From positions 124,001 to 188,000 of the forward strand of contig NZ_ANFY01000011.1 in assembly GCF_000331225.1 (NCBI RefSeq): a stretch of DNA of 64,000 nt. The letters are read 5' to 3'. Both the position numbers and the translations under genes were made by a program. The notes beneath the pieces are model-generated. The model was not told the DNA's origin and did no database searches. It worked only from the letters and a program-made list of their open reading frames with translations. The number at the start of each line of letters is the position of its first letter. Position 1 is the stretch's first letter. Source of the stretch: Sandarakinorhabdus sp. AAP62 (GTDB taxonomy: Bacteria; Pseudomonadota; Alphaproteobacteria; Sphingomonadales; Sphingomonadaceae). This document shows positions 17,269 through 19,101 of this stretch, piece by piece.

Positions 17269-18030
17269 TCAGTGCTTGATGGTCAGACCATAGCGGTGCA
17301 GCGCCGGTGCCAGCGCGTCAACCTGTTCGTCATGCCGAGTGAACAGCGCCCGGCCCAGCCCATCGCCTTGCGTCCCACGTTCGCCCAGCAGATAGGCCAC
17401 ACGCCGCGCAATGCCGGGGCCGCCGTCGACAAAGCCCATATCCGGCGCTGCTGTCTGTAGCTGCGGCAGCAGCAGCGGAAAATGGGTGCAGGCCAGCACG
17501 ACCTGATCGAGGCGATCACCGCCGGGCTGGCTGGTCAGGCCGGCCAATTCGGGCGCGACATCTTCTGCCGTCACCGCCTCCCCCCGCAACCGCGCCTCGG
17601 CCAGTTCGACCAGCCGCGCCGATCCGTGCAGCAGCACCGTGCAATCGGCGGCATGATCAGCCGAAAGCCGCGCCACATAGGGTTGGCGCACCGTTGCCAT
17701 CGTGCCGAGCACGCCGATCACCCGGCTGCGGCTGGCTTCGGCCGCCGGCTTGATGGCGGGCACCGTGCCCACCACCGGCACATCCAGCACGGCGCGGGCG
17801 TGGGCCAGCGCGATGGTGGAGGCGGTGTTGCAGGCGATCACCAGCAGGTCGGGCTTCAGCCGCTCGGTCAGCCGGCCGAGCAGCGCGCACACCCGGGTGG
17901 CAACCTCCATCTCGGTCTTGGTGCCATAAGGAAAACCCGCATTATCAGCGATGTAGCTGATATCCACTGCCGGCAGGCGCGCACGCACATCATCCAGCAC
18001 CGACAAGCCACCAACGCCGGAATCAAGCAT
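17269..18030 (-). CDS. murI: Glutamate racemase MurI
   Basis: A cofactor-independent racemase that makes D-glutamate for peptidoglycan. The catalytic cysteines are in VIACNTAST and VLACTHFPLLLP. The first conserved strand and loop are LDSGVGGLSVL and YIADNAGFPYG. From the ATG at 18030 the product has 253 residues but starts right at the first strand, lacking the 3-6 residues that normally precede DSGVGG. An in-frame ATC at 18045 would restore them and sits 5 bases after a perfect Shine-Dalgarno sequence. The gene leads the murI-thioesterase-hydrolase run. Confidence 0.93.
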   Translation of the reverse strand: MLDSGVGGLSVLDDVRARLPAVDISYIADNAGFPYGTKTEMEVATRVCALLGRLTERLKPDLLVIACNTASTIALAHARAVLDVPVVGTVPAIKPAAEASRSRVIGVLGTMATVRQPYVARLSADHAADCTVLLHGSARLVELAEARLRGEAVTAEDVAPELAGLTSQPGGDRLDQVVLACTHFPLLLPQLQTAAPDMGFVDGGPGIARRVAYLLGERGTQGDGLGRALFTRHDEQVDALAPALHRYGLTIKH

Positions 18031-18050
18031 CAGGATGTGAGTGATCGTCG

Positions 18051-18057
18051 CCTCCCC
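18051..18057 (-). promoter_or_regulatory. Strong ribosome-binding site suggesting an ATC start for murI
   Basis: On the minus strand GGGGAGG lies here. It is 20 bases from the first ATG (18030), too far for normal use, but 5 bases from an in-frame ATC (18045-18043) that would give ITHIL before MLDSGVGG. Confidence 0.55.
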
Positions 18058-18252
18058 AAAGTCGTTCGCGGTGCGTCCTCCGCCTCATGTCATGGCAGGC
18101 GGCAAAAGGCAAAGCGCCGCCAGGAATCATCCTCAACAAGAAATGAAACGGGTTCTCAGCCCCTGCATTTTCCCGCGATGTGGCCGTGAACAGCAGTAGC
18201 CGGGGTTCAGCACGACCGCCGGCTGCTGGGTGGACGACGAAGGACCAGACAG

Positions 18253-19101
18253 ATGTTCAGGCATGTCATCATTGGCGCAGTCGCCGCCTTCGGGCTGGCC
18301 AACGCGGCCAACGCGACGGTGGAAATTTCCACCACGGCCCGCGGCGTGTTCAGCAACGTGCGAGTTGTCGGGCAATCCGCCTTTCTCGTGGGCCCAAACG
18401 CCATCGTCACCGGCCGAACCTCGCCCGGCTATTCGCTCAACAACAGCGTGCCGAGCTTGGCGGCGATCGTGGGGCTGGGGAATCAGAATCTCGTGACCGC
18501 CACCCTCTCCCTCAACAGCGGCGCCATCGCGACGGCGGCCAGCGCCAATGGCACCACACCAGCCAACACGACATCGGGCAGTGCCAGTTCCGAGATCAAC
18601 AATCTCGCCATCAGCCTGTTCACCATCGGCGGCGCGATCCCCAACGTCCTCAGCCTCACGGCCGACCAGGTGCAATCGGTCACCACCGTCACCAAGGCAG
18701 GCCTGGTCACCACCAACACCGGCCAGTCGCTGTTCGACAATCTGGCGCTCAGCATCAATGGCAGCAACGTGTTCAGCACGGGCAGCAACGCGCAAACCGC
18801 CGTCAACTTCGTCGCCTATGATCAGGGCGGCTTGAAAGTAACACTGAATCAACAGTTTGCCAGCAACTTTGGCGACACCCGCACGCTGATCACCAATGCG
18901 ATCGGCATCAGTTTCTCAAATTATCTGCTCGACGGCCGCAGCCTGTCGGGCACCATCACGGTGGGCCAGTCGCTTTCGGAATTCATCGACAGCGCCGGCG
19001 ATCCGGTGCCCGAACCGGCGGGTTGGGCCCAGATGCTGGCCGGCTTTGCCATGGCGGGCAGCGCGGCGCGGCGCAAGCGGCGGCGGCACCGCAGGGCTTG
19101 A
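18253..19101 (+). CDS. PEPxxWA-CTERM sorting domain protein, exported
   Basis: A 282-residue exported protein. It has a signal peptide (MFRHVIIGAVAAFGLANAANA), a Thr/Ser/Asn-rich beta-structured body of about 225 residues, and a C-terminal PEP-CTERM signal (PEPAGWAQMLAGFAMAGSAARRKRR): the PEP motif, a membrane helix and an arginine cluster. Proteins of this type are cleaved by an exosortase and released or attached at the surface, often with exopolysaccharide. No exosortase gene is in the window. The body resembles choice-of-anchor families but I cannot name it. A GGA site lies 8 bases upstream of the ATG. Confidence 0.87.
   Translation: MFRHVIIGAVAAFGLANAANATVEISTTARGVFSNVRVVGQSAFLVGPNAIVTGRTSPGYSLNNSVPSLAAIVGLGNQNLVTATLSLNSGAIATAASANGTTPANTTSGSASSEINNLAISLFTIGGAIPNVLSLTADQVQSVTTVTKAGLVTTNTGQSLFDNLALSINGSNVFSTGSNAQTAVNFVAYDQGGLKVTLNQQFASNFGDTRTLITNAIGISFSNYLLDGRSLSGTITVGQSLSEFIDSAGDPVPEPAGWAQMLAGFAMAGSAARRKRRRHRRA

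Follow-up and report, generated by a model that had tools for sequence, protein, structure and literature searches.

An AUC codon behind a strong Shine-Dalgarno sequence as the probable start of the glutamate racemase gene murI in a Sandarakinorhabdus clade

In a clade of the genus Sandarakinorhabdus, murI, the glutamate racemase gene, is very probably translated from an AUC codon, located at position 18045 of the window (the whole 64,000-nucleotide stretch of DNA analyzed here), on which a strong Shine-Dalgarno (SD) sequence would place fMet-tRNA. On the minus strand, positions 18057 to 18028 read GGGGAGG CGACG ATC ACT CAC ATC CTG ATG, and the frame continues after this inner ATG with CTT-GAT-TCC-GGC. 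The GGGGAGG motif (18057-18051) lies 5 nt from the in-frame ATC (18045-18043) and 20 nt from the first ATG (18030-18028), and a frame scan of the window revealed no ATG, GTG or TTG in the murI frame between a TGA at 18087-18085 and 18030. A preliminary description of this DNA had proposed, from these two spacings and from the gain of the peptide ITHIL, that murI starts at ATC. Spacings and peptide are both as claimed, and the proposal itself is now backed by the start column in relatives, the single clade carrying ATC, the SD energies, the codon pattern and an invariant leucine residue, Leu5. The features concerned are the following.

17269 to 18045, minus strand: murI (glutamate racemase), 258 aa when read from ATC, stop included
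18043 to 18045, minus strand: candidate start codon ATC
18051 to 18057, minus strand: Shine-Dalgarno sequence GGGGAGG, 5 nt before ATC
18031 to 18042, minus strand: codons ACT CAC ATC CTG (T-H-I-L), added by the ATC start
18028 to 18030, minus strand: inner ATG coding for Met6, the first canonical start in the frame, considered internal to the protein
18085 to 18087, minus strand: in-frame TGA, upstream bound of the murI frame
18253 to 19101, plus strand: divergent PEP-CTERM gene, with a relative beside murI in all six ATC genomes

Comparison establishes that the frame is conserved, that the start column is shared, that the ATC genomes form a single clade and that the SD is strong, and we infer that ribosomes initiate at ATC 18045. 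The N-terminus of MurI could be read in 23 of the 24 genomes of the genus, the exception being G012, which gave no match. At the column of position 18045, ATC is found in six genomes (G000, G004, G006, G020, G010 and G021) and ATG in six sisters (G001, G017, G019, G014, G018 and G007). In these sisters, the next five codons are GCG, one for His, Arg or Gln, one for Val or Ile, one for Leu, and ATG. In the remaining 11 genomes, an ATG stands elsewhere, 4 to 11 codons before the residue preceding the catalytic Asp. According to the preliminary description, an ATG at this position in relatives would betray a sequence error in the window. Such an ATG does exist, in the six sister genomes, and is the strongest argument for placing the murI start at this column; its interpretation as a sign of error did not hold. 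Sequencing error as the source of ATC was ruled out, as the codon is common to six genomes, and since these form one core-gene clade the change is an inherited one. The inner ATG (18030) is found in all 12 close relatives, whether they carry ATC or ATG, and is thus an internal Met codon in the ATG group.

Three of the ATC genomes (G000, G006 and G021) contain no canonical codon between the upstream stop and the inner ATG, and in them no in-frame canonical start fits the conserved protein. In the limnophila group (G004, G020 and G010), one in-frame ATG occurs 4 codons ahead of ATC, without an apparent SD. It is improbable that this upstream ATG (ATG GAG GCG GCC ATC) is the start in these three genomes, which would mean that the ATC start is not common to all six: although in frame, it overlaps the SD itself, no purine-rich SD is visible by eye before it, and G000, G006 and G021 lack it while having the same GGAGG-N5-ATC.

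In the wider family, a canonical codon was present within 24 codons at 26 of 26 loci (L028-L053). Of 60 further family stretches, 58 were readable, and in 56 a canonical codon stood at least 4 codons before the residue preceding the catalytic Asp. The two exceptions belong to another genus, G052 (L217) and G134 (L190), and have a murI CTG codon which overlaps an out-of-frame TGA and follows GAAGGAG; judging from these sequences, murI seems to start at CTG there, making theirs the second lineage whose murI has a non-canonical start. Another murI, at L213 (G131), has ATC where its genus-mate G050 (L052) has GTG, and an in-frame ATG 10 codons further upstream. As for G012, which is listed as 99% complete, a profile search at E 0.001 returned no MurI match, and the genome contains an aminotransferase match, under the TIGR01121 cut-off, which might supply D-Glu. 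Matches to D-amino-acid aminotransferase, another route to D-Glu, were obtained in 24 of 24 genomes, none of them above cut-off.

In a DNA tree of rpoB, secA and infC (7563 columns, 14 genomes; without infC of G020 and with only part of rpoB in G017 and G022), the six ATC genomes form one branch with support of 99/98, recovered in 100% of 200 bootstrap trees. When four murI-region genes were combined with these core genes, this branch was supported at 97/97. The ATC genomes are not resolved as one clade in the tree of the murI-region genes nor in that of the MurI protein; both trees imply two changes, and a single change occurs in 10% and 28% of their bootstrap trees, respectively. By parsimony, the direction AUG to AUC is the simplest, the core-gene tree leaving the base fork of the 12 genomes unordered. 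The most likely history would be that an AUG start with a weak SD gave way once, in the ancestor of six species, to an AUC start with a strong SD.

The SD sequences differ in strength between the two groups. Pairing energies were computed for the 20 bases before each start against the general anti-SD sequence, which we take to be the one used here and which was adopted since two patterns for the 16S tail found no match. The duplex before the start lies between -10.2 and -12.7 kcal/mol across the six ATC genomes (-12.5 in the window) and between -1.7 and -5.8 kcal/mol across their six ATG sisters. In a sample of 69 genes sharing an ATG, whose starts are mechanical calls and not curated ones, the quartiles were -8.0, -6.1 and -3.3 kcal/mol, and a single gene (1/69) reached -12.5. 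RNA structure over the start, folded for four genomes, did not differ from shuffled sequences (z of 0.37, 0.04, 1.41 and -0.81), and no sigma-70-like promoter was found in 17900-18400.

Codon comparison within the ATC genomes indicates that the coding pattern begins after the ATC column. Codons +1 to +4 are ACT, ACG, ACC or TCT, then CAC or CAT, then ATC or GTT, then CTG, TTG or CTC, that is, with synonymous or conservative changes only. Upstream of the column, codon -1 is ACG, GCC, GCG or ATC and, being this variable, is free, while codons -3 and -2 (GAG GCG) are constant, third positions included, which fits an SD and not a coding sequence. GGAGG-N5-ATC is kept in 6 of 6 ATC genomes while the codons just upstream diverge, which speaks against a chance arrangement. 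The invariance of ATC itself is weak evidence, since ATC accounts for 1002 of the 1180 Ile codons in the sampled genes.

The protein encoded in the window scores 165.7 bits against TIGR00067, above the cut-off of 146.65, and is the only glutamate racemase match in its genome (G000); it remains under the cut-offs of NF002034 (218.9 of 408) and NF002035 (118.2 of 328). In an alignment of 43 proteins (the window and 42 loci, including five of the six ATC genomes), D8 S9 G10, C72 N73 T74 and C186 T187 H188 are invariant, the Asp of DSG and the Cys motifs CNT and CTH presumably having catalytic roles. Leu5, coded before the inner ATG, is likewise invariant. It had been suggested that the ATC start restores the first beta-strand needed by MurI proteins, and the AlphaFold2 model (pLDDT 96.2) agrees: the first strand spans residues 3-8, of which residues 3-5 (His, Ile and Leu) lie ahead of the inner ATG. 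The top PDB match of this model is E. coli MurI (2jfn), with a TM score of 0.92 by query length and E 5.7e-25. Across 23 solved MurI sequences, the position equivalent to Asp8, taken from alignment ranges with gaps assumed absent, is at least residue 7 (minimum in 1b73, 2jfx and 8udi), and it is residue 6 in the genus members G022 and G008. Were translation to begin at 18030, the catalytic Asp would be residue 3.

Initiation at this inner ATG, which would yield a 253-aa protein (MLDSGVGG...) and reduce the upstream conservation to that of a leader, is very unlikely. It is the first canonical start codon of the frame and the choice of a mechanical ORF listing, but in none of the six ATC genomes is it preceded by strong SD pairing (window, -0.5 kcal/mol; range, -0.5 to -4.1), the codons upstream evolve as coding ones and hold Leu5 and half of strand 1, and the same ATG is internal in six sisters with an ATG five codons earlier.

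A 21-codon small ORF, out of frame with murI, occupies 18088-18023 (minus strand), overlapping the murI start and ending just past the inner ATG. It was considered as a conserved upstream small ORF and rejected, its start being present in five of the six ATC genomes and absent in G021, and its peptides differing. Hardly credible at all is a dual use of starts, with the enzyme made from AUC and a minor, shorter product from AUG 18030: although the inner ATG is common to all 12 close relatives and the small ORF could feed reinitiation, the inner Met is kept in ATG-start genomes as well, the small ORF lacks its start in G021 and varies in peptide by species, and the short form would be deprived of half of strand 1.

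The gene neighborhood also distinguishes the two groups. In the window and in 5 of 5 compared stretches of ATC genomes, murI has a divergent PEP-CTERM neighbor, which adjoins a plsC-like gene except in G021, in which no plsC-like gene was found in the stretch. In five of the six ATG genomes, murI adjoins the plsC-like gene and the PEP-CTERM gene is missing there; the sixth, G001, has a PEP-CTERM gene, 41% identical. The 5' leaders of the ATC and ATG groups align poorly. Since neighbor and leaders both differ between the groups, the changes in SD, leader and start codon fall on the same portion of the tree. Among the loci compared (L068-L073), G006 (L069) carries two PEP-CTERM copies in tandem beside murI.

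The rarity of this arrangement was assessed on 344 genes common to sequences of G000 (609 kb) and G004 (572 kb). In these we sought a shared ATC, ATT, ATA, CTG or ACG that precedes the first canonical codon, follows a strong SD and is separated from that codon by conserved residues. Only 2 of the 344 genes, murI and C3:314771, passed the strict filter and only murI was judged convincing, in what is a rarity check and not a blind test, its thresholds having been set with murI known. C3:314771, with ATC, was judged to be leader DNA, as a signal peptide recognized by eye starts at a later ATG and the upstream codons are devoid of synonymous change. infC (ATA, -7.4) fell just short of the strict SD limit. 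In a smaller scan of 121 genes, murI was the sole match.

The genus appears to possess a second gene of this kind. Of the 23 genomes in which infC was matched, 22 have ATA at the conserved column and G008 has ATC, preceded by an AGGA-type SD (L081-L103). From this pattern infC seems to start at ATA or ATC, the ATA start being deduced, since an ATG stands some codons later; in G000 (L087, C3 about 511590, minus strand), this ATG lies several codons after ATA. Few such starts are known, as gene calling usually ignores start codons other than AUG, GUG and UUG. One of them is that of E. coli pcnB, a chromosomal gene which, according to Binns and Masters, is reportedly limited by its AUU start. As far as the available accounts go, pcnB thus resembles murI as a chromosomal gene with an AUH start; it is called nonessential in the accessible part of PMC9410913, whereas murI serves cell-wall synthesis.

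Like murI, infC (AUU or AUA) combines a conserved AUH start with an SD. However, the start of infC is linked to the autoregulation exerted by IF3, which in E. coli discriminates against the AUU start of its own gene (PMC9410913, from the accessible text), whereas murI encodes a biosynthetic enzyme. In S. aureus, an AUA start of infC was detected by initiation profiling, and two further genes, cvfC1 (AUU) and ccpN (AUA), have conserved starts behind extended SDs; the output of their reporters was about 10% of that with AUG in poor medium and, for ccpN, up to 30% in rich medium (PMC13009471, available portion). Similarly to murI, cvfC1 and ccpN associate a conserved non-canonical start with a strong extended SD. 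cvfC1 encodes a small protein that may contain a zinc finger and ccpN a transcriptional repressor, and their initiation was profiled (PMC13009471, same portion), while in murI the codon is AUC and the start is known from comparison alone. With respect to the AUH-start class, characterized by a start and a strong SD conserved in a clade, both elements are kept in 6 of 6 genomes.

Among 61,358 ancestral AUG starts, Belinky et al. 2017 observed switches to GUG, UUG, CUG (2) and AUU (1) (PMC5622118, accessible sections); the term AUC is absent from the text of that study. According to the same sections, SDs are stronger in genes starting with GUG or UUG, the difference in SD conservation is not significant in alphaproteobacteria and the direction of individual switches could not be settled (PMC5622118). 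These switches resemble that of murI in the pairing of a weaker start with a stronger SD. No report of a non-canonical murI start was found among the matches listed from open-licence full texts.

Regarding the mechanism, GGGGAGG at its 5-nt spacing would set the initiator fMet-tRNA on AUC, the strong SD most likely making up for the weak codon pairing. The initiating residue would accordingly be fMet instead of Ile, and the product fMet-Thr-His-Ile-Leu-Met-Leu-Asp-Ser-Gly, with the first beta-strand intact. By analogy with reporters of other genes (PMC13009471, available portion), it is plausible that the AUC start limits the racemase level, with an output below that of AUG; some or all of the codon's weakness may be compensated by the strong SD.

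An AUC start would correct the N-terminus of a cell-wall enzyme. It would also provide a paired natural experiment, in which one start column combines AUG with a weak SD in one group and, in the sister clade, AUC with a strong SD, and hence a case for testing compensation between start codon and SD (see Belinky et al., PMC5622118). By analogy with infC, IF3 may modulate murI output, and murI and infC, both of which seem to start at AUH codons, may both respond to this factor. A joint IF3-dependent control of murI and infC, acquired in one ancestor through a new 5' region (PEP-CTERM neighbor, leader and SD) together with the start codon, is conceivable though rather doubtful. If true, the supply of D-glutamate for peptidoglycan would follow IF3 per ribosome, coupling wall synthesis to translation capacity.
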